A DNA stretch of 13,908 nucleotides from Dehalococcoidia bacterium (GTDB lineage Bacteria > Chloroflexota > Dehalococcoidia > Dehalococcoidales > Fen-1064), in assembly GCA_011192055.1 (NCBI GenBank), contig DUES01000176.1, forward strand, positions 5,707 to 19,614, given 5' to 3'. Under the pieces are notes generated by a model, which had not been told where the DNA came from, searched no databases, and saw only the letters and a list, made by a program, of their open reading frames with translations. A program made the translations under genes and the position numbers. How positions within the stretch are numbered: position 1 is the first letter of the stretch; every line of letters starts with the position of its first letter. Positions 3,162 to 12,447 of the stretch are shown here, in pieces.

Positions 3162-3935
3162 TTAGCTCTTGTCCGGCTCTGAATTACCGGTTTTCTTTGC
3201 GAATATGGACAGCAGTTCCATTGGCAGCGGGAATATAAGAGTGCTGTTTTTCTCGGTGGCAATCTCGGTAAGCGTCTGGAGATACCGCAGTTGCAGCGTG
3301 ACCGGTTCCTTGGCAATAATAGCGCCGGCTTGAGCCAGTCGCTCTGAAGCCTGGAACTCGCCGTCGGCATGAATAATCTTGGCGCGCCGTTCACGTTCCG
3401 CTTCGGCCTGGGCGGCCATCATCCGTCTCATCTGCTCGGGAAGCTCAACTTCCTTAATCTCAACAGTGGCGACCTTGATGCCCCAGGGGTCGGTGTGCTC
3501 ATCAATAATCTTCTGGAGCATCATGTTGAGCTTTTCCCGTTCTGTCAGCAACTCGTCTAACTCGGACTGGCCCAGCACATTCCTCAGCGTGGTCTGTGCT
3601 ATCTGGGAGGTAGCCCTGATGTAATCATTTACATTCACAACTGAATCTTTAGGGTCAACGACCCTGAAGTAAATTACGGCGTTTACGCGTACCGTAATAT
3701 TGTCCTTGGTAATGACCTCCTGCGGGGTTACATCCATTGTTACTACCCTGAGGTCCCTTTTTATCATCTGGTCAACAAAGGGAATTATCAGGAAAAGTCC
3801 GGGACCCTTTGACCCCAACAGACGTCCCAGACGAAAGATAACACCTCTCTCGTATTCTTTCAGTATCTTGACTGTTGAAGGAATCAGTATTACAATAACG
3901 AGCGCAATAATACCGATTATGATTGGAGTGCTCAT
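3162..3935 (-). CDS. Slipin / stomatin-like SPFH-band 7 membrane protein
   Basis: A 257-residue prokaryotic slipin. Residues 4-20 form one N-terminal membrane helix, followed by the SPFH/band 7 domain (from [12 protein letters not shown] near 28 to about 180), a charged helical coiled-coil segment ([13 protein letters not shown]) and a hydrophobic C-terminal patch near 231-245 ([12 protein letters not shown]). Slipins oligomerise at the membrane and organise proteases and membrane domains. In the archaeal NfeD/stomatin pair PH1510/PH1511 the protease cuts the stomatin in its hydrophobic C-terminal region, and the patch here looks equivalent. ATG 3935 has an excellent AAAGGAGGT 6 nt upstream and overlaps the preceding gene by 4 nt (ATGA), so it is translationally coupled. 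It is the last gene of the nfeD operon. The stop codon lies within a perfect 12-bp palindrome at 3153-3164. Confidence 0.92.
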
Positions 3936-4294
3936 TCACTTACCTCCTTTGGTTTTCTACGGTTTGATGCAACATTACTACGATGTGATGGTATCACGCT
4001 TAGCACCAGGTTGTCGACTCCGGTTATGGTTACTTCCTCGCCGGATTCCACGTTACCCTCCTCCGAAACCGCCGTCCACAGTTCACCCTGTATAAAAACT
4101 GTTCCTTCGGGCTGGAGATCAGTCCGGACTCTGGCAGTTTTCCCGATAAGGTCTTCACTCCCCGCAGATATGCGGCGACGGTGTACCAGTATCCCACGCC
4201 AGATAACAAGTGCCAGGAATGCCACTACCAGCACTACGATGAGGGCAATCGCCCAGGGCTCCAACAGAAACCAGTCAACCATAAAATCAGGCAA
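3932..4294 (-). CDS. Small NfeD-type membrane protein with OB-fold domain (second small copy)
   Basis: A 120-residue protein with one membrane helix (about 12-35, very rich in A/I/V/L) and a C-terminal NfeD OB-fold domain (about 45-105) that contains [18 protein letters not shown] and [11 protein letters not shown]. It lacks the ClpP-like protease part and corresponds to short NfeD proteins that pair with SPFH proteins. The start is TTG 4294: a perfect AAGGAGGT (4301-4308) lies 7 nt before it and overlaps the stop codon of the preceding gene. An internal ATG four codons later has no comparable site. It overlaps the slipin start by 4 nt. The OB domain is clearly paralogous to those of the two upstream genes. 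It probably tethers or stabilises slipin assemblies, which is inference. Confidence 0.87.
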
Positions 4295-4300
4295 CTGACT

Positions 4301-4308
4301 ACCTCCTT
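4301..4308 (-). promoter_or_regulatory. Strong ribosome binding site for a TTG start
   Basis: Perfect AAGGAGGT on the minus strand, 7 nt before the TTG at 4294. It overlaps the TAA of the upstream small NfeD gene (4307-4309), so termination and re-initiation are likely coupled. It decides the TTG start. Confidence 0.75.
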
Positions 4309-4627
4309 ATACCTTCCTGACCACAAAAAGCTTCAGGCCTTCAATCTTTCTCACTTGAACTATTACCCCGGCTTCAATATGCCCTTCCTGCGATACTGCT
4401 TTCCACAACTCACCAGCCATAAGTACAGTCCCTTCAGGTTCCAGCACTACTTTAACGGTGGCTGTCTTTCCCCGTATTGCTTCTTTTCCGGTTGCCGGTC
4501 TGCGGAAGACCGCCCTTAATGTCTGGAACACGTCTACAAGTTGCGACCACAGGAGTACTGCTACCAGTACAAAAACGACGATACCAACAATTGCTACCGC
4601 GCTCAATTGACTGTCCCCTTCAGTCAC
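4307..4627 (-). CDS. Small NfeD-type membrane protein with OB-fold domain (first small copy)
   Basis: A 106-residue protein with one membrane helix (about 9-28) and an NfeD OB-fold domain from about 47 to the end (RGKTATVKVVLEPEGTVL, GELWKAVSQEG). It is a near relative of the C-terminal domain of the full-length NfeD just upstream and of the next small gene, so it probably arose by local duplication. The listed start is GTG 4627, which overlaps the nfeD stop by 8 nt (GTGACTGA) but has only a weak AAAAGAAA ahead. An in-frame TTG at 4606 follows AAGGGGA by 7 nt and is a serious alternative; it would remove 7 hydrophilic residues without touching the helix. Function is inferred from the operon: an accessory of the NfeD/slipin unit. 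Confidence 0.85.
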   Translation of the reverse strand: MTEGDSQLSAVAIVGIVVFVLVAVLLWSQLVDVFQTLRAVFRRPATGKEAIRGKTATVKVVLEPEGTVLMAGELWKAVSQEGHIEAGVIVQVRKIEGLKLFVVRKV

Positions 4628-5966
4628 CGATTTCTTTTGGAATCCTGGTGACGTAAAGTTTCAGGCTTTCGACTCGATTGATGACCACTGTCTCCCCTGC
4701 TCTAATGCGTCCCTCTTCCGAGACCGCCGTCCATCGCTCTCCTTTTAAAAGAACACTTCCTTCCGGAGCAAGAGGCTCCTTTACCAGGGCAGTCTTTCCC
4801 ATCAGTTCCTCCCATCCTGTGGTCGGTTGCTGCCTGTGCACGGATACAACTCGCGTAATAATAAAGGCCGTTAAAGTGCCAATGCAAACAGCCACAATGC
4901 CAATTAACCATGGGTTCACCTGAAAGAGAGGCCCTCCCTTAAACAGAATCAGTGAACCCAGTATCAGGGAAATGATGCCCCCGCCGGTGAGTAATCCGAA
5001 ACTACTGGTAAATACTTCAGCGATAAAGAGCGCGAAGGCTCCCACTACCAGTAAAATCCCGGCAATATTTACGGGCAGGTTCCCCAGTGAGTAGAAAGCC
5101 AGTATTGCACAGATACCCCCGGCAACTCCGGGGAAGATGAGTCCCGGATTGGAAATCTCTACGAACAGACCGAGTGAAGCCAGCCCCAGAAGCACATAGG
5201 CAATGTTAGGGTCCGTGATTGCAAATAGAAATTCCTCCACCCAGTTCATCTCAATATGATGTATGACGGCCCCCGAGGTCTCGATTGTCACTTCGGTACC
5301 GTCGAGGAGAGTTGTTTCCCATCCGTCAAGTTGCAGTATCAGTGAAGCAAGGTCAGGGGCAACCATGTCAATCACGTTAAGCTCCAGGGCTTCCTGTTCG
5401 GTAGCCGAAACAGCTTCCCGGACTGCTCGCTCCGCCCAGTCCATGTTGCGCCCGTGGGCTTCGGCAATACTCCTGATATAGGCAGCGGCATCGTTGAGAA
5501 CCTTCTCCTGCATTGTCTCGGACATCTGTTCCTCACCCTCGGCCCCGATAGATACCGGACTGGCCGCCCCGATAGCCGTATTAGGTGCCATAGCAGCAAC
5601 GTGGGCAGCAACAGTTATGAAAGCACCCGCCGAAGCTGCACGTGCCCCGGAAGGGGAAACATAAACTACCACCGGAATACGTGCGTTCACAATATCCTGG
5701 ACAATATCCCGCATTGCGGTGTCAAGTCCGCCCGGCGTATCCAGCTGGATAATACAGACGGTTGCACCGGCTTCTTCCGCCTCCTGTATACCTCTGTTAA
5801 TATAGTCCGCTGATACGGGGTTGATAATCCCCTTGACTACAATGGTGAATATCTCAGGCACCACTGCCCTGGCTATCAGCGCTGTAGAGGACAGAACAAG
5901 TAGCCCTAGCAGCAGTACAATCCGAAGTACCTTGAGCCCCCGAAGTATATTCCACCTGTTTACCAT
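4620..5966 (-). CDS. nfeD: Full-length NfeD: membrane-bound ClpP-class serine protease
   Basis: A 448-residue membrane serine protease of the NfeD/PH1510 family. In order: N-terminal signal or membrane helix (about 13-35), ClpP-like protease domain (38-215), a block of about five membrane helices (255-371) and a C-terminal OB fold (385-441). The Ser-Lys dyad is visible: S112 in GARAASAGAF, and K155 in EKVLNDAAAYI, 43 residues apart, much as in PH1510 (S97/K138). DTPGG (76-80) is the typical substrate-strand motif. Known relatives cut the hydrophobic C-terminus of the partner stomatin, and a slipin is encoded in the same operon. No Shine-Dalgarno precedes ATG 5966 and a promoter -10 lies only 6 nt upstream, so the mRNA may be leaderless. 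No alternative in-frame start near the N-terminus is better. Confidence 0.93.
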   Translation of the reverse strand: MVNRWNILRGLKVLRIVLLLGLLVLSSTALIARAVVPEIFTIVVKGIINPVSADYINRGIQEAEEAGATVCIIQLDTPGGLDTAMRDIVQDIVNARIPVVVYVSPSGARAASAGAFITVAAHVAAMAPNTAIGAASPVSIGAEGEEQMSETMQEKVLNDAAAYIRSIAEAHGRNMDWAERAVREAVSATEQEALELNVIDMVAPDLASLILQLDGWETTLLDGTEVTIETSGAVIHHIEMNWVEEFLFAITDPNIAYVLLGLASLGLFVEISNPGLIFPGVAGGICAILAFYSLGNLPVNIAGILLVVGAFALFIAEVFTSSFGLLTGGGIISLILGSLILFKGGPLFQVNPWLIGIVAVCIGTLTAFIITRVVSVHRQQPTTGWEELMGKTALVKEPLAPEGSVLLKGERWTAVSEEGRIRAGETVVINRVESLKLYVTRIPKEIGD

Positions 5967-6087: not shown

Positions 6088-7341
6088 ATGAGAGTCCAGA
6101 AGTGCAAGGGAACCAGAGATATGTCTCCGGCGGAGATGAACAGGTTTCGTCTCATCGAAGGTATTTTCCGGGACTGCTGTATCAAGGGAGGGTACCAGGA
6201 AATAAGGACTCCCACCCTTGAATACCTGCACCTGTTTACGTCCACTGGTACCCTTACTCCGGGTAAGCTGGGCAAGGTCTATTCTTTCCTTGATTGGGAC
6301 GGGTGGAGTGGTGAAAGGGTAGTGCTGAGGCCGGATGCAACTATCCCGGTCGCCCGTTCCTATATTGATACCAGTAAAGCATCTGAACTGGCCAAGCTCT
6401 TCTATGTAACAAATGTATTTATTTTCGAGGAAACCGGTAAGGAAAACCGTGGAATCTGGCAGTGCGGCGTGGAGCTTATCGGGGCGGGTTCTGCTGTAGC
6501 AGACGTAGAACTGATAACCCTGGCGCTGGATGTACTCGGAAAACTCGACCTGAAGGACGTTGAACTGAAACTCTCACACTCAGGCCTGATACGGGCTCTG
6601 CTCACCAGGTTCGGACTAAGCCCCCGTGAACAGGTAGCGGTATTCGACCGGATACTGGATGGGGATAAGGATGCGCTCTCCAGTCTGATGACAAAAACAC
6701 CGGAACTCGGTGAAACGCTTACACCCCTGCTTGACCTCAAGGGGCAATCGCCGGGATTCCTCCGCAATCTCAGGTCGCTATTCAGTCGGGACCTGCCTGA
6801 GTTTGAACCTGCCCTGAATAATTTCATCGAAATCGCAGACATTCTGGAAAATATGGGATACCGGTACCAGATAGACATCACCTCCGGAAGGGGTTTCGAA
6901 TACTATACCGGCATTATCTTTGAGATACTCGCCGGAGAAGAGAGGGTCGCCGGTGGCGGCAGGTATGATGACCTCATCCCGCTGATGGGTGGCCCGCAGG
7001 TCCCTGCGTCCGGTTTTGCCCTGGGTATTGACCACCTGATGGGCCTGATATCGCTGGATACACTTAACGGACACCTTCCTGAAAGGGTACTGGTCAGGAC
7101 TGTAAACAGTAATGTTGACGATATCAGGGAAAGTTTCCGGGTTTCTGCATGCCTTCGAGACGCCGGATATGCCGCTGAGCTGGACCTGGGGAAGGAAGCT
7201 GCAGCCGACCTGCGATGGGCAGTGGACGTCCGGAGTAAACCACCCCGTTTCAGTGTAACCGACCTCATCAGCCGGAAAACGTCTGAAGTAAATAGTGCCG
7301 ACCAGGTGGTGGAGTTACTGGGAGGGGATGGTGCCGATTAG
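6088..7341 (+). CDS. hisZ: ATP phosphoribosyltransferase regulatory subunit HisZ
   Basis: A class II aminoacyl-tRNA-synthetase-like paralogue of histidyl-tRNA synthetase that activates short-form HisG and mediates histidine feedback. Class II features seen: KGTRDMSP (7-14), RPDATIPVAR (81-90, where HisRS has RPEGT), QCGVELIGA (125-133; the GVELIGA form is HisZ-like), RGFEYYTG (268-275), and AGGGRYDDLI with ASGFALGID (288-315). At 417 residues it is longer than minimal HisZ proteins of about 330. Residues from about 328 (ERVLVRTVNS) look like a degenerate anticodon-binding-type domain. I prefer HisZ to HisS because it heads a his operon, overlaps a regulatory-domain-less hisG, and has changed HisRS motifs. 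It is led by AGGGAAGGG and a 17-nt-spaced promoter. Its last 14 nt overlap hisG. HisS remains the only realistic alternative. Confidence 0.88.
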   Translation: MRVQKCKGTRDMSPAEMNRFRLIEGIFRDCCIKGGYQEIRTPTLEYLHLFTSTGTLTPGKLGKVYSFLDWDGWSGERVVLRPDATIPVARSYIDTSKASELAKLFYVTNVFIFEETGKENRGIWQCGVELIGAGSAVADVELITLALDVLGKLDLKDVELKLSHSGLIRALLTRFGLSPREQVAVFDRILDGDKDALSSLMTKTPELGETLTPLLDLKGQSPGFLRNLRSLFSRDLPEFEPALNNFIEIADILENMGYRYQIDITSGRGFEYYTGIIFEILAGEERVAGGGRYDDLIPLMGGPQVPASGFALGIDHLMGLISLDTLNGHLPERVLVRTVNSNVDDIRESFRVSACLRDAGYAAELDLGKEAAADLRWAVDVRSKPPRFSVTDLISRKTSEVNSADQVVELLGGDGAD

Positions 7342-8746
7342 AATAGCATTACCCAAGGGGCGCCTCCTTACCGAGACGGCAGACCTGCTTAAAAGAGCAA
7401 AATGGGGCCTTGAAGGTTACAATAAAAGTCTGCGTAACTACCGCATCAGGTCAAAACAGTTCCCCGGACTCCGGATAAAGGTATTCAATGAACGGGACAT
7501 ACCTGTCCAGGTGGCCGTGGGTAACTACGATTTGGGTATCTGCGGACTTGACTGGGTTGAGGAGCTTTCGACGAAATACACAAGCTCCGCCCTGGTCAAG
7601 ATAAAAGACCTGGGATACGGTGGTGGCGTCCTCTGCCTCGGTGCAAACATATTACAGCCTGTTCCTGCAACGGAAGAACTCCGGGCACAGGACGGACTGA
7701 TACGCATTGCCAGCGAGTACCCCAATCTTGCGGAATACTTCGCGCTGAACATGAGATTACGCCGGTTCAGCGTATTTCCCCTCTGGGGTGCCGCCGAAGC
7801 TTATCCTCCGGAAAGTGCCACGTTAGCCCTGATATCACGCACGGCAGAGAGCGAGCTTGCCGACTGTGGTCTGGCAAACGTAAGCACACTGCTGCACCAC
7901 AGTGCTTTCCTGATTGCCAACAAGAACAGCTGGAAGCAGAAAGACCTCAGCGAGATACTGGATTCCCTCGATGGACAGCTTTCTGCCGCACGGAAAAGTA
8001 CGGTGCCTGCAGCTAACCCCGATGAGACTATTGTCCCATCCCTGCCCTGGACAGTCAGGGAGGATACGGTACGCCTTGCCCTGCCCGATGGTCACCAGCA
8101 GGCTCCGATGGCAGAACTACTGGAGAAAGCCGGTATCCTCATGGAAGATTATCCCTCAGGCAATGGCAACCGCCGGCCGGGCTCCAATCTTGAAGGCGTG
8201 GTAATAAAGGTAATCCGCCCCCAGGATATGCCGTTACAGGTAGCCAACGGCAATTTTGATATTGCTGTTACCGGCCGGGACTGGCTGACCGACCACCATA
8301 TCATGTTCCCGGGCAGTCCGGCAACCGAACTCCTGGACCTGGGTTCCGGCAAGGTGCGCATGGTAGCCGTGGTTGGGCAGAACATTCCTGCTGACGATAT
8401 TTTCAGTCTGAGGCAGTTTGTTACCGGACGTAACGTACCCTTCAGGGTCGCTTCTGAATACGTTAATATAGCTGACCGGTATGCCAGGGAGAACCGGCTT
8501 GGCATGTACCGCGTAATTCCCACCTGGGGAGCTACGGAAGCCTTCCTGCCCGAGGACGCCGACATGCTCATCGAGAACACCGAAACCGGCGGGACTATAG
8601 CCAGGCACAACCTTAAGATTATCGACACCCTGTTTGAATCGACCGCCTGCGTCATCGGGAATACTGAAGAAAAACCCAATCCACGTAAACAGGAAAGAAT
8701 TGAATCTCTTATCGAAGCCCTGAGGATTGCCGTGGAGGGTAACTGA
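7328..8746 (+). CDS. hisG: ATP phosphoribosyltransferase, tandem fusion of two HisG catalytic domains
   Basis: Catalyses the first step of histidine synthesis, ATP + PRPP to phosphoribosyl-ATP. One uninterrupted frame of 472 codons carries two short-form HisG domains, about 1-212 and 247-472, joined by a linker rich in A/P/S. Ordinary HisG is about 200 or 290 residues. Matching segments: ALPKGRLL (7-14) against ALPDGHQQ (251-258); DIPVQVAVGNYDLG (57-70) against DMPLQVANGNFDIA (300-313); ASEYPN against ASEYVN; GAAEA against GATEA. The PRPP loop is intact only in copy 2 (D412, then TETGGTIARHNL from 418) and lost in copy 1 (RTAESELADCGL, 171-182), whereas KGRL is intact only in copy 1. The C-terminal regulatory domain of long HisG is absent, consistent with HisZ next door. 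The start is ATG 7328 after GGGAGGGG (spacing 0-2); GTG 7331 is equally possible. Overlaps hisZ by 14 nt; hisD follows after 1 nt. Confidence 0.92.
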   Translation: MVPIRIALPKGRLLTETADLLKRAKWGLEGYNKSLRNYRIRSKQFPGLRIKVFNERDIPVQVAVGNYDLGICGLDWVEELSTKYTSSALVKIKDLGYGGGVLCLGANILQPVPATEELRAQDGLIRIASEYPNLAEYFALNMRLRRFSVFPLWGAAEAYPPESATLALISRTAESELADCGLANVSTLLHHSAFLIANKNSWKQKDLSEILDSLDGQLSAARKSTVPAANPDETIVPSLPWTVREDTVRLALPDGHQQAPMAELLEKAGILMEDYPSGNGNRRPGSNLEGVVIKVIRPQDMPLQVANGNFDIAVTGRDWLTDHHIMFPGSPATELLDLGSGKVRMVAVVGQNIPADDIFSLRQFVTGRNVPFRVASEYVNIADRYARENRLGMYRVIPTWGATEAFLPEDADMLIENTETGGTIARHNLKIIDTLFESTACVIGNTEEKPNPRKQERIESLIEALRIAVEGN

Positions 8747-8747
8747 T

Positions 8748-10037
8748 ATGCGGACTATCCGCGGTATTGACACAGCCAGAGAGATACTGTTAAAACGTGC
8801 TTCCGCCAGTCCGGGTAGTATTGACGAACGTGAGCAGGCTGTCCGGCGCATAATAGCGGATGTTGCAGACCGTGGTGACGCCGCTGTCATGGAATATACG
8901 CGTAAATTCGATTATGCCGGACTTGAATCACTCGAGGTTAGCAGGGATGCAGTCAAGGCTGCGTACCATAACATTACATCAGAACTGCACGCCGCCCTCG
9001 AACTGGCCGCTGAGAGGATAAAAGCCTTCCATACCGCGCAACTCGGTGCCATCAGCTCCGGTACGGGAGACACCGGTCTTAGCTGGCTGGTACGCCCGCT
9101 GAAACGGGTTGGCGTCTATGCTCCGCACGGGACTGCCCCCTACCCGTCATCCCTGCTGATGACGGCGGTACCTGCGAAGGTAGCCGGAGTCCCGGAGTTG
9201 ATTCTTACTACTCCTTGCGGCTCTGACGGCACGCTCCCGGCAGCAACACTGGTCGCAGCAGACATAGCCGGTGTCGACCGTATCTTCTCAATCGGTGGGG
9301 CACAGGCAATTGCCGCCCTGGCACTCGGGACCGTGTCAATTCCCCGTGTCGATAAAGTGTGCGGACCGGGCAACATTTATGTTATGCTGGCCAAGAAACT
9401 GCTCTTCGGGACTGTCGGCATCGACGCTCTCCAGGGCCCGTCCGAGGTGCTCATTATCGCTGATGACACTGCCAGCGTGGAATACTGCGCTTCCGACCTG
9501 CTTGCCCAGGCCGAACACGACGAACTGGCTGAAGCGGTACTGGTGACAACCTCGGCAGTGCTTGCAGAGAGGATAACGGAAGAAATCTCGCGGCAGATTC
9601 AGGACCTGTCGAGGAAAGAAATAGCTGAAACGTCTCTCGAACAGAACGGTATAATAATGCTTGTAGACAGCATGGACGAAGCGCTGGAGATAGCAAACCT
9701 CTACGCTCCCGAGCACCTTCTCCTGATGGTTGAGCGGGCGGAATCGTATCTTGACCGTATAGTAAACGCGGGCTGCATTATCCTCGGAGATAAGGCAACC
9801 GTGGCAATCGGTGATTACGTGGCCGGTCCAAGCCACGTACTGCCCACGCAGGGCACGGCGCGTTTCAGTTCGCCGCTGAGTGTTCTCGATTTCGTCAGGC
9901 TGACCAACCTGATTTCCGTCGACGAAGACAGCCTGGTAAAACTGGGACCAGCAGCAATGACCATCGCGGAATTTGAAGGACTGGATGCCCATGCCCGCGC
10001 AGTTAAGCGGCGGTTGGAAGGAAGAGGGGCACAATGA
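8748..10037 (+). CDS. hisD: Histidinol dehydrogenase
   Basis: Zn-dependent, NAD+-linked four-electron oxidation of L-histidinol to L-histidine, the last step of the pathway. The 429-residue length is normal. Motifs: GGAQAIAALALGT (183-195), VDKVCGPGNIYV (201-212), GPSEVLIIAD (230-239). Probable Zn ligands are Q254, H257, D356 and H415, and the catalytic pair is E322-H323 (LYAPEH), each offset by only 4-5 residues from the E. coli enzyme. The start ATG 8748 is 1 nt after the hisG stop with GGAGG 9 nt upstream; the frame opens 7 codons earlier but inside hisG. Its TGA overlaps the ATG of the next gene (ATGA). No sign of decay. Confidence 0.96.
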   Translation: MRTIRGIDTAREILLKRASASPGSIDEREQAVRRIIADVADRGDAAVMEYTRKFDYAGLESLEVSRDAVKAAYHNITSELHAALELAAERIKAFHTAQLGAISSGTGDTGLSWLVRPLKRVGVYAPHGTAPYPSSLLMTAVPAKVAGVPELILTTPCGSDGTLPAATLVAADIAGVDRIFSIGGAQAIAALALGTVSIPRVDKVCGPGNIYVMLAKKLLFGTVGIDALQGPSEVLIIADDTASVEYCASDLLAQAEHDELAEAVLVTTSAVLAERITEEISRQIQDLSRKEIAETSLEQNGIIMLVDSMDEALEIANLYAPEHLLLMVERAESYLDRIVNAGCIILGDKATVAIGDYVAGPSHVLPTQGTARFSSPLSVLDFVRLTNLISVDEDSLVKLGPAAMTIAEFEGLDAHARAVKRRLEGRGAQ

Positions 10038-10753
10038 CAGGTCAACCGGAGATAACCGGAGCAGACAGCATCCTGGAGCGTATTATTCCGGAGCTTGAGG
10101 TCGACTTTGTTGGCGTTGCCAGTCTGGCCGGGTGGAAGGATACGAAGCTGGAAGAGACGGCCCTTGCATTGTTACCGGGAGCAAAGTCGGTGGTGGTCTT
10201 CAGTATGGAGATTGTGCGGGAAATACTTGACCTTTCTTCCCCGACCAGGATACAGGGAGCCGCCTCTACTACGGACCTGATAGATTCCGACAGCCAGTAC
10301 CTCGGGGGTAAGTTAACCGAGGCAACCTATGGAGCCACGCGGGCACTTCGCAGAGCCGGATACAGGACGCTGCCGCTTCCCTCAAGAGACTGCCCTACTG
10401 ACGACCGTTTCATGCAGGCCATATTCTCCTACAAACATGCCGCACAGGCAGCCGGGATGGGTAAGCTGGGCTGGCACAGTCTGCTGATAACGCCGGAGTT
10501 TGGACCCAGGGCAAGACTTGGTGTATGCCTGACGTAAGCAGAACTGGAACCCGGTGGTGAGAGCAGCGTTACCTTCAACTGTATGCGATGTCGTAAATGT
10601 ATCGATATCTGCCCGGCGGGTGCAATAAGGGAGCCATCTCCGGACGAACCGTACCGCATTGACAAGTTCGCCTGCAATGGTTACCGTGCTGCTGCAGGTG
10701 GCTGCTCGGAGTGCATGCGGGTCTGCCCACCAGGCTTGAAGTCGAGAAAATAG
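10034..10753 (+). pseudogene. QueG-like 4Fe-4S protein gene interrupted by an in-frame TAA
   Basis: Read through one stop, this is a 239-codon protein. Residues 1-167 resemble the cobalamin-fold part of epoxyqueuosine reductase-like proteins (AAQAAGMGKLGWHSLLITPE, GPRARLGVCLT). A TAA at 10535-10537 (codon 168) interrupts the conserved LTxAELEPG segment. The same frame then continues with two ferredoxin motifs: C183-x2-C186-x2-C189-x3-C193-P and C214...C224-x2-C227-x3-C231-P, ending at TAG 10751. Between the stop and the first Cys there is no ATG, GTG or TTG, so the second half cannot be made alone with all its cysteines. Full QueG is longer, with C-terminal HEAT repeats, so this is a short relative; the role is unknown. 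It is packed into the his operon (4-nt overlap with hisD, 1 nt before hisC). Either a recent nonsense mutation or a sequence error; one base change restores a sense codon (e.g. GAA, CAA, AAA). Confidence 0.8.
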
Positions 10754-10754
10754 T

Positions 10755-11852
10755 ATGGATAAACAACCCGGGATTGAAAGACTGATACGACCTGACCTGC
10801 TTGCCTTTGGTGGATATTCCGCGGCAACATCACCGGAAACGCTAGAAGGCAAGGTTGAGGTAGCAGTAGAAGATATCATCAAGCTGGACGCCAACGAGAA
10901 CCCCTACGGCTGCTCACCGAAAGTCAGCCGGGCACTGGGGAGCTACGGCAACTTCCACATATACCCGGACGACGGCCAGGCAAAGCTGAGGGAGTTACTG
11001 GCAGGGTATACCGGTGTTGACGCCCGCCACATTGTCGCGGGCAGCGGCAGCAACCGCCTGATAGACCTTGTGCTGCGCCTTCTCATCAGTCCCGGTGATG
11101 AAATCATCAACTGCGTACCGACATTCGGTATCTATAGTTTCAGTAGTCTCCTCTGCGGCGGCAAGGTAATTAAAGTACCCCGTACCGAAGAATTCGCCGT
11201 GGACGTAGCTGCTGTGAAGAAAGCCATCGGCAGCAGGACAAAGAGACTGTTTCTGACCAATCCGAACAACCCCAGCGGGACACTGACACCCCGTGAAGAC
11301 ATCCTGGAACTTCTGGATACAGGCATCCCGGTACTCGTCGACGAGGCATACTACGAGTTCAGCGGAGAGACCGTGGCAGAACTGGTTGGCCGTTACGACA
11401 ACCTGATGGTGCTGCGCACCTTCAGCAAGTGGGCAGGGCTGGCTGCCTTGCGGATAGGATATGGTCTGTTTCCGGCAGCTATTGCCGATTTTCTACTGAG
11501 AATCAAGATACCGTACAATATCAATGCCGCCGCCCAGGTAGCTGTGGAGGAATCACTGAAAGACTCTGACTATCTCATGGCAAGCGTGAAAGCGATAACA
11601 GCGGAGAGAGACAGGCTATTCAATGAACTGGGGAAAGTGACATGGTTACGGCCAGTCCCTTCAAGGGCTAACTTCATCCTCTGCCAGGTGCTCCGGGGAA
11701 AGGCTGTGGAGCTGCACCGGAAGCTGCGCGACAAGGGTATCCTTGTCCGTTACTTTGACCAGCCATTGCTGCAGGACTATGTCCGCATAAGCGTGGGCAA
11801 GCCCGAGCATACTGATGCCCTGGTCAGGACACTCTGTGAAACAGGAGGCTAG
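10755..11852 (+). CDS. hisC: Histidinol-phosphate aminotransferase
   Basis: PLP-dependent fold type I aminotransferase converting imidazole-acetol phosphate and glutamate to histidinol phosphate. 365 residues, normal length. Seen: [10 protein letters not shown] near 43-52, [10 protein letters not shown] (cofactor phosphate contact), [18 protein letters not shown] (PLP-contacting Asp and Tyr), and the Schiff-base lysine K225 in [17 protein letters not shown], where most HisC proteins have SKAFGLAGLRVGY. The start ATG 10755 is 1 nt after the QueG-like frame and has no good Shine-Dalgarno of its own (GAGAAAATAGT), so it probably depended on translational coupling to that gene; the upstream TAA could therefore reduce its expression. 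HisB follows after 4 nt. Confidence 0.95.
11843..11848 (+). promoter_or_regulatory. Ribosome binding site deciding a GTG start for hisB
   Basis: Perfect AGGAGG inside the 3' end of hisC, 8 nt before GTG 11857. It supports this GTG over the in-frame ATG at 11815, which lies deep in hisC and would add 14 residues not seen in the family. Confidence 0.75.
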
Positions 11853-11856
11853 AACT

Positions 11857-12447
11857 GTGACCAATCGACATTCGGTTATCGAGAGAAAGACCAGTGAAAC
11901 AGATATTAAACTGGAGCTTACTATTGATGGTTCCGGGAAGTACGAAATAGCCTCCGGAATCGAGATGCTTGACCACCTGCTTGCCCAGCTTGCCCGTCAC
12001 GGGAGGTTCGACCTTACGATATCGGCCACGGGGGACGACCAGCACCACCTTGCCGAGGATATCGCTATCTGCCTTGGCAAAGCCCTGGGGGAAGCACTTG
12101 GCGAGAAACGCGGTATTACGCGTATGGCCGATGCCACCGTACCCATGGACGAATCTTTAGCCTCGGTAGCAGTTGATATCAGCGGACGGGCATACTCCGT
12201 ACTCGAACTGCCTTTCAGTGCCAACGATATGCTCGGGTTCGCAACCGACCTCGTGCGGCACTTCCTGGAGTCTTTCGCCACCGAAGCCAGGCTTAATTTG
12301 AATGCAAGGATACTCGGTGGTATCAACGACCACCACAAGGTTGAGGCGCTTTTCAAGGCGCTCGGGCGTGCCCTGGATATTGCCACGCAGATTGACGAAC
12401 GACTGGGGAGTGATGTTCCCAGCACCAAAGGGCGACTGGAAACGTAG
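11857..12447 (+). CDS. hisB: Imidazoleglycerol-phosphate dehydratase
   Basis: Mn-dependent dehydration of imidazole-glycerol phosphate to imidazole-acetol phosphate, upstream of HisC in the pathway. The 196-residue length equals the monofunctional enzyme, without the N-terminal phosphatase of E. coli HisB. The two pseudo-symmetric halves each show metal motifs: DQHHLAED (61-68; H63, H64, E67) and [12 protein letters not shown] (157-168; H159, H160, E163). [16 protein letters not shown] (39-53) and [15 protein letters not shown] (97-111) are family signatures. Starts at GTG with AGGAGG 8 nt upstream, 4 nt after hisC. Last recognisable gene of this operon: hisH, hisA, hisF and hisI do not follow, and no clear terminator is seen. 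Confidence 0.95.

Follow-up and report, generated by a model that had tools for sequence, protein, structure and literature searches.

The window analysed here, a stretch of 13,908 nucleotides from a Dehalococcoidia bacterium (assembly GCA_011192055.1, contig DUES01000176.1), contains a gene, hisGG, whose single reading frame encodes two HisG domains in tandem. HisG, the first enzyme of histidine synthesis, serves as a model of how a partner protein can activate an enzyme allosterically, with the decisive contact thought to run from one subunit of its dimer to the other. We consider it fairly probable that HisGG is a fused, asymmetric and HisZ-dependent pseudo-dimer, in which the second half of the chain (half 2) is catalytic and the first (half 1) acts as a non-catalytic partner that probably lends an arginine. 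An earlier note on this DNA had proposed a covalent pseudo-dimer with unlike halves. The asymmetry turned out to be common to the whole lineage, as a TGxT-like string, the mark of the loop that binds phosphoribosyl pyrophosphate (PRPP), is present in half 2 of 391 out of 393 tandem sequences and in half 1 of only 9.

Two HisG domains in one chain

The open reading frame of 472 residues at 7328-8746 (+) contains two PF01634 stretches, in line with the two HisG domains of the earlier note. PF01634 was the only family found in a Pfam scan of HisGG, and a C-terminal HisG_C domain was not detected, as in the short form of HisG (HisGS); where the long form (HisGL) has its C-terminal regulatory domain, HisGG has its second PF01634 domain. 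With 472 residues and two domains the protein departs from the single-domain size of HisGS. The two named HisG types have 292 +/- 11 (HisGL) and 214 +/- 9 residues (HisGS) (PMC8305728). The standard hisG model TIGR00070 labels HisGG as plain hisG and thereby masks its architecture.

AlphaFold2 (AF2) modelling of the window protein gave a predicted local distance difference test score (pLDDT) of 90.6 and a predicted template modelling score (pTM) of 0.89, with a HisG fold in both halves. For the distant tandem protein L056 the values were 95.2 and 0.91. In the window protein both halves are HisG-folded according to the model, which speaks against one of them being another fold, and the two pTM values predict that the halves are held at a constant orientation to each other. 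When the L056 model was compared with the PDB, the HisG rows (ranks 1-35) all aligned best to half 2, a comparison which thereby does not test half 1.

Loss of the PRPP loop in half 1

The family alignment of 393 tandem sequences was assembled from the listed matches of three protein searches, of which 5 out of 361 were dropped by length, and 37 proteins from tandem loci were added. The set leans to three subgroups and contains many close kin (effective number 169 at 80% identity). The nine TGxT-like strings of half 1 comprise eight SGRT-like remnants and one string that is more loop-like (P0331, ADSGGTA). In half 2, E404, E416, G421 and R297 are present in 393/393 and T420 in 392/393. At position 169 of half 1, the counterpart of E416, other residues are found (V133, L99, I89, A27, F21 and C11, together 380/393); position 165 is acidic in 347/393, and E157, the alignment counterpart of E404, is kept in 282/393. 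The degraded loop in the first copy and the intact loop in the second, which had been noticed in the window protein, are therefore features of nearly the whole family. Known short forms have the PRPP loop in every HisG unit; HisGG has it in half 2 only.

The same half carries the putative contact to adenosine triphosphate (ATP). R297 aligns with the arginine of 'VRASDVP' in the B. pertussis chain; in the A. baumannii chain the arginine within 'LRASDVP' has the number 70, and half 1 of the window protein has N54 there. Arg70 of A. baumannii contacts the gamma-phosphate of ATP (PMC10795190).

The KGR motif and its replacement by DGH

The earlier note had described a complementary loss of motifs, with KGR kept in half 1 and the PRPP loop in half 2. 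Half 1 has indeed lost the loop; its KGR proved to be kept only in the subgroup of the window protein (K10 in 133/134, R12 in 109/134). Over the family, position 10 is K in 133, R in 127, T in 74, A in 33 and G in 24 of 393 sequences, and position 12 is D in 185, R in 114, E in 46, Q in 23, S in 8 and K in 8. On the evidence of this wider family, the idea that the two halves lost KGR and the loop reciprocally is rejected as a rule. In half 2 the replacement DGH is practically invariant (D254 392/393, G255 393/393, H256 393/393).

Single HisGs of the class were compared at the position of the KGR lysine. They were taken from the best-scoring loci and from hand-picked genomes and are not a random draw (n=34); the fragments L073, L074 and L077 were left out, being pieces of tandem proteins. 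Nine of these singles have D at this position and one, L021, has A. The D-bearing proteins are L037, L040, L041, L042, L043, L044, L046, L052 and L053, in which PSDGE or PSDGA replaces KGR; L038 seemingly has N. Each of the ten genomes with a D or A single gave one PF01634 match, in assemblies that may be incomplete. Loss of the KGR lysine is thus common in presumably working single enzymes, and DGH is no sign of a dead half 2. KGR with the catalytic Arg32, a trait of HisGS, is absent from half 2 and found only in half 1 of the subgroup. As many Chloroflexota singles have KGS or DGE/DGA and thus no counterpart of Arg32, this trait is not strict.

A candidate arginine in half 1

In the HisZ-activated enzyme of P. 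arcticus, Arg56 of one HisG subunit crosses the dimer and reaches the pyrophosphate of the PRPP in the other (PMC9734150). Full catalytic power requires Arg32, Arg56 or both. Arg29 of A. baumannii is the counterpart of Arg32 (PMC10795190); in the aligned chain it is the R of KGR, at which half 2 has H256. Since half 2 has a histidine where the studied HisGs have their second leaving-group arginine, an arginine lent by half 1 may be indispensable.

Such an arginine would lie in the R36-x-Y-R39 loop. R36 is present in 377/393 and either R36 or R39 in 392/393, and R36 aligns with the xRxY arginine of the Chloroflexota singles. As R39 nearly always remains where R36 is lost, the loop is named as candidate and not a single residue. 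The counterpart of R36 in half 2 differs by alignment, being G280 against B. pertussis 11te and R282 against 2vd3. R282 is found in 362/393 and R283 in 359/393, and one of the two in 392/393. The earlier idea that a functional site uses parts of both halves survives as a putative half 1 arginine reaching into half 2, and not as a combination of KGR with the loop.

Distribution of the tandem family

A profile built from 70 tandem proteins was used for genome searches. In a sample of 393 genomes of the class of G008, the genome of L017, which is taken as Dehalococcoidia from the record title of L017, 351 gave a match. About 242 carry the tandem type at an E-value <1e-60, in some cases in pieces or truncated where a contig ends. 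The 109 genomes with a best E-value >1e-40 represent single HisGs and fragments (e.g., G242, G266, G316). In a sample of 400 genomes of the phylum Chloroflexota 304 matched, 36 of them at full length with 550-756 bits; all 36 are also in the class sample, and the best other match reached 128 bits and covered half 2 only. The initial protein search gave 3720 matches, and the 120 listed span 85-100% of the query. Among the matches listed, the named ones are labelled Dehalococcoidia, Dehalococcoidales, Chloroflexi, Chloroflexota or marine sediment metagenome, and the record titles of 18 tandem loci read Dehalococcoidia, Dehalococcoidales or Chloroflexi. The tandem family is confined to Dehalococcoidia wherever the host could be told, the systematic search having covered the Chloroflexota.

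An assembly artefact or an erroneous joining of two genes has a negligible probability. All 18 named loci do come from metagenome-assembled genomes. However, the same continuous frame occurs in independent genomes and in several hundred protein clusters, and some tandem contigs exceed 1 million bases (e.g., G228, G219); the number of independent genomes with a continuous frame rules this explanation out. Two separate hisG genes with a stop and start between them, which would have spoken against a fusion, were not the arrangement in these genomes, where the tandem frame is continuous. Two of the listed tandem rows (G341, G385) have one internal stop.

The tandem protein was the sole HisG in 9 of the 9 genomes first tested. 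G127 and G273 contain a tandem protein and a separate single HisG (pairs L093/L098 and L094/L099), the single one belonging to another clade, which may reflect redundancy, transfer or contamination of the bin. No match to another his gene of the window was found in the 8 kb fetched around each of these single genes, and the tandem gene lies in a his cluster, so the tandem protein is likely the histidine enzyme there.

Origin and selection

A tree of 76 rows was calculated from 16 N halves, 16 C halves and 44 singles, two of which are solved chains; for this 16 tandem proteins were picked, and 12 near-copies and 3 tandem fragments were dropped from the singles. The N halves group in one clade (16/16; 100/99) and the C halves in a second one (16/16; 100/97); every single HisG lies on one side of a branch (100/99). 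L060_N and Tmar_1usy were flagged as long branches. A single ancient duplication and fusion, followed by vertical descent, accounts for these clades. Separate duplications in different lineages are ruled out by these half-specific clades for the 16 tandem proteins in the tree.

Half 1 evolves on average 1.58 times faster than half 2, and the N half has the longer branch in 104 of 105 pairs when 15 of the 16 tandem proteins are compared (L060 excluded). In 12 of 12 pairs the ratio of nonsynonymous to synonymous substitutions (dN/dS) is 0.09-0.35 for half 1 and 0.07-0.20 for half 2, with several synonymous distances >1 and thus saturated. Half 1 is held by purifying selection, and its interpretation as a decaying remnant is ruled out by these values. 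L060 (G089) is a very divergent tandem protein whose long half 1 branch amounts to 2.53 changes per column. At 282-284 it reads 'QGD' instead of 'RRP', yet it retains DGH and the PRPP loop.

The HisZ partner

In the window hisZ lies directly upstream of hisGG, the partner gene expected for HisGS, and the two genes share 14 bases where hisGG begins. Among 32 tandem loci (18 with record titles and 14 hand-picked), hisZ is found upstream in 30; for the remaining two, L004 and L007, the DNA on that side is <320 bases long. Downstream, hisD is present in 32/32, in distant members often after a gap of 0.7-1 kb. Six loci with a single HisG (L098, L099, L102-L105) were viewed for comparison: L104 has a weak hisZ-like match, and L105 has hisD, hisC and hisB. 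The weak match of L104 lies around L042, a single HisG with D for the lysine.

The hisZ product scores 212.1 bits with TIGR00443 (cut-off 271.65) and 221.5 bits with TIGR00442, each below its own cut-off. In the PDB comparison it matched the HisZ chains 3od1, 8oy0, 1z7m and 5m8h and chains of histidyl-tRNA synthetase (HisRS). The HisRS-like core (PF13393) and the position directly 5' of hisGG, as in a hisZ-hisG pair, fit HisZ. It had been described as unusually long; with 417 residues against a published length of 377 +/- 39 (PMC8305728) it is not, and this premise for a deviating stoichiometry falls away. Known short forms consist of four HisZ and two HisG dimers (PMC9734150, PMC10795190). 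A changed chain stoichiometry is nevertheless plausible, for example HisZ4:HisGG2, which by analogy would be the simplest complex, with the same set of domains and two sites instead of four.

Proposed mechanism and alternatives

HisGG would be the catalytic part of an ATP phosphoribosyltransferase that depends on HisZ, with the usual HisG homodimer joined into a single asymmetric chain; gene neighbourhood and sole occurrence point to this activity. Half 2 would bind PRPP and ATP, giving one catalytic site per chain, and half 1, being non-catalytic, would complete the dimer on which HisZ docks. An arginine of the R36-x-Y-R39 loop of half 1 probably reaches over the interface into half 2, where it would meet PRPP at its pyrophosphate end. 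More tentatively, and with rather less than even confidence, HisGG may represent a third architecture besides HisGL and HisGS:HisZ, namely an obligate single-chain pseudo-dimer whose pseudoenzyme half supplies an arginine in trans to the sole site, the own arginine of that site having become an invariant histidine; HisZ would then drive two sites instead of four, in a HisZ4:HisGG2 complex.

Several observations weigh against the fused pseudo-dimer with a lent arginine. In P. arcticus the crossing of Arg56 was seen only in the HisZ-bound crystal and not in HisGS alone (PMC9734150). R36 is lost in 16/393 sequences, among them the near relative L017, with R39 staying in 15 of the 16, and its equivalence depends on the alignment, as it falls on the SRK arginine of B. 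pertussis 11te and one residue off in A. baumannii 23fh. If the cleft of half 1 is dead, the conservation of R282 and R283 in half 2 lacks a reason, and that of K10 in the subgroup of the window protein is unaccounted for as well. Half 1 has R at position 54, the counterpart of the ATP arginine, in 132/393, and the loop of P0331 looks less degraded than the others. The second HisG in G127 and G273 also belongs here. In addition, mean-field couplings from the 393 sequences placed the pair 38-423 third between the halves, in a list headed by the homologous positions 136-380 and containing further pairs that are unlikely. When independent pairs were counted on a FastTree tree of the full set, 38-423 showed a mean of 2.7 in the same direction, 0 in the opposite and 4.3 with no difference; allowing for kinship the coupling is not significant (median p 0.25) and was therefore not used.

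The main rival is a regulatory half 1, whose loopless cleft, surrounded by conserved basic residues, binds an anionic effector (a nucleotide, pyrophosphate or the product) and tunes half 2. The conservation of R282/R283, K or R at position 10 of half 1 in 260/393, the retention of E157 and the purifying selection on half 1 would fit this. However, T, A or G occupies position 10 in 131/393 and position 12 is acidic in 231/393, so that no single ligand signature emerges, and in known short forms HisZ already carries the histidine feedback; we regard a regulatory half 1 as unlikely. Somewhat less likely still is a half 1 that is a structural scaffold only, serving to hold the HisG dimer together and to contact HisZ while contributing no catalytic residue. 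The lost or variable PRPP loop and KGR and the faster evolution of half 1 agree with a scaffold, whereas an arginine in the R36-R39 loop persists in nearly every sequence, which a structural role could also explain. A composite site, built from the half 1 KGR and the half 2 PRPP loop, is very improbable: the motifs are so arranged in the window protein and its subgroup, but outside the subgroup KGR is not conserved while the half 2 motifs stay, and single HisGs cope without the KGR lysine.

If the fused pseudo-dimer with one intact site is correct, it would be a natural single-chain dimer whose halves can be mutated separately, which is impossible in a homodimer, and the built-in asymmetry would allow the cross-dimer signal of HisZ to be dissected by half-specific mutations. 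It would also be a central enzyme of which one protomer has seemingly become a pseudoenzyme and has been kept so across a bacterial class.

Other features of the window

The coordinates of hisGG, its parts and the neighbouring his genes are collected in Table 1. Between hisD and hisC a gene at 10034-10537 (+) ends in an in-frame stop, and the same frame runs on to about 10750. No Pfam match was found for the first part (10034-10537); past the stop the frame encodes a ferredoxin-like cysteine-rich stretch, and the homologues in L001 and L017 are uninterrupted there. The interruption may be a recent pseudogene or a sequence error. At 3162-5966 (-) an SPFH/band-7 gene adjoins three genes that share an NfeD C-terminal domain. 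Two of them are short (120 and 106 amino acids), and the third is an NfeD1b with the membrane domain; a row of three NfeD-type genes seems unusual.

Table 1. Position of hisGG, its sequence elements and the neighbouring his genes in the window (aa, amino acids).
Feature	Position	Strand	Evidence or remark
hisZ, ATP phosphoribosyltransferase regulatory subunit, 417 aa	6088..7341	+	PF13393 185.8 bits
hisGG, tandem two-domain HisG, 472 aa	7328..8746	+	two PF01634 stretches, TIGR00070, AF2 model
Half 1, aa 1-220, predicted HisG fold without PRPP loop	7328..7987	+	
K10-G11-R12, half 1	7355..7363	+	kept only in the subgroup of the window protein
R36-N-Y38-R39, half 1, candidate trans-arginine, putative counterpart of P. 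arcticus Arg56	7433..7444	+	
Degraded PRPP-loop region, half 1, aa 165-177	7820..7858	+	
Linker between the halves, aa 221-247, variable	7988..8068	+	pLDDT <50 at 221-234
Half 2, aa 248-472, predicted HisG fold with PRPP loop	8069..8743	+	
D254-G255-H256, half 2, invariant replacement of KGR	8087..8095	+	
R282-R283, half 2, conserved	8171..8176	+	
R297, half 2, counterpart of the arginine contacting the ATP gamma-phosphate	8216..8218	+	
PRPP loop, half 2, aa 412-424, DMLIENTETGGTI	8561..8599	+	
hisD	8748..10037	+	PF00815 522.8 bits
hisC	10755..11852	+	TIGR01141 314.3 bits, above cut-off
hisB, open frame, true start probably slightly further in	11815..12447	+	PF00475 180.2 bits; NF002116 above cut-off

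Comparison with known systems

A description of a HisG-HisG protein was not found in the full-text literature among the matches listed, as judged from titles and the beginnings of abstracts, with subscription papers mostly outside this literature; two abstracts name a hisG-URA3-hisG cassette. Fusions of hisZ with hisG are mentioned (PMC9413887). In the available part of a paper on gene elongation, hisG is named once, in an operon formula (PMC7284861), and a table in the hisNB section of PMC1963479 gives 0 for two Dehalococcoidetes genomes in each of the two columns displayed.

Like HisGS with HisZ from P. arcticus, A. baumannii, L. lactis and T. maritima, HisGG has HisG folds without a C-terminal regulatory domain, an adjoining hisZ and, in half 2, the PRPP loop and the ATP arginine. 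These known forms are HisG homodimers on a HisZ tetramer. The chain of HisGG differs in that it joins a loopless HisG domain to a second HisG domain, half 2, in which DGH replaces KGR. With HisGL of E. coli and M. tuberculosis it shares a homologous catalytic core, whereas no C-terminal histidine-binding domain was found in HisGG, which has HisZ instead. Those singles of the class that carry PSDGE or PSDGA have likewise exchanged the KGR lysine for aspartate and keep the PRPP loop in the alignment, but they have one domain and group with the other singles in the tree, apart from the tandem halves. Duplication and fusion within a gene is also known from the elongation of other his-pathway genes (hisA, hisF, hisB, hisD; PMC7284861). 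In hisGG, however, the halves each correspond to a whole enzyme of the stand-alone type, one of which is without its substrate loop.

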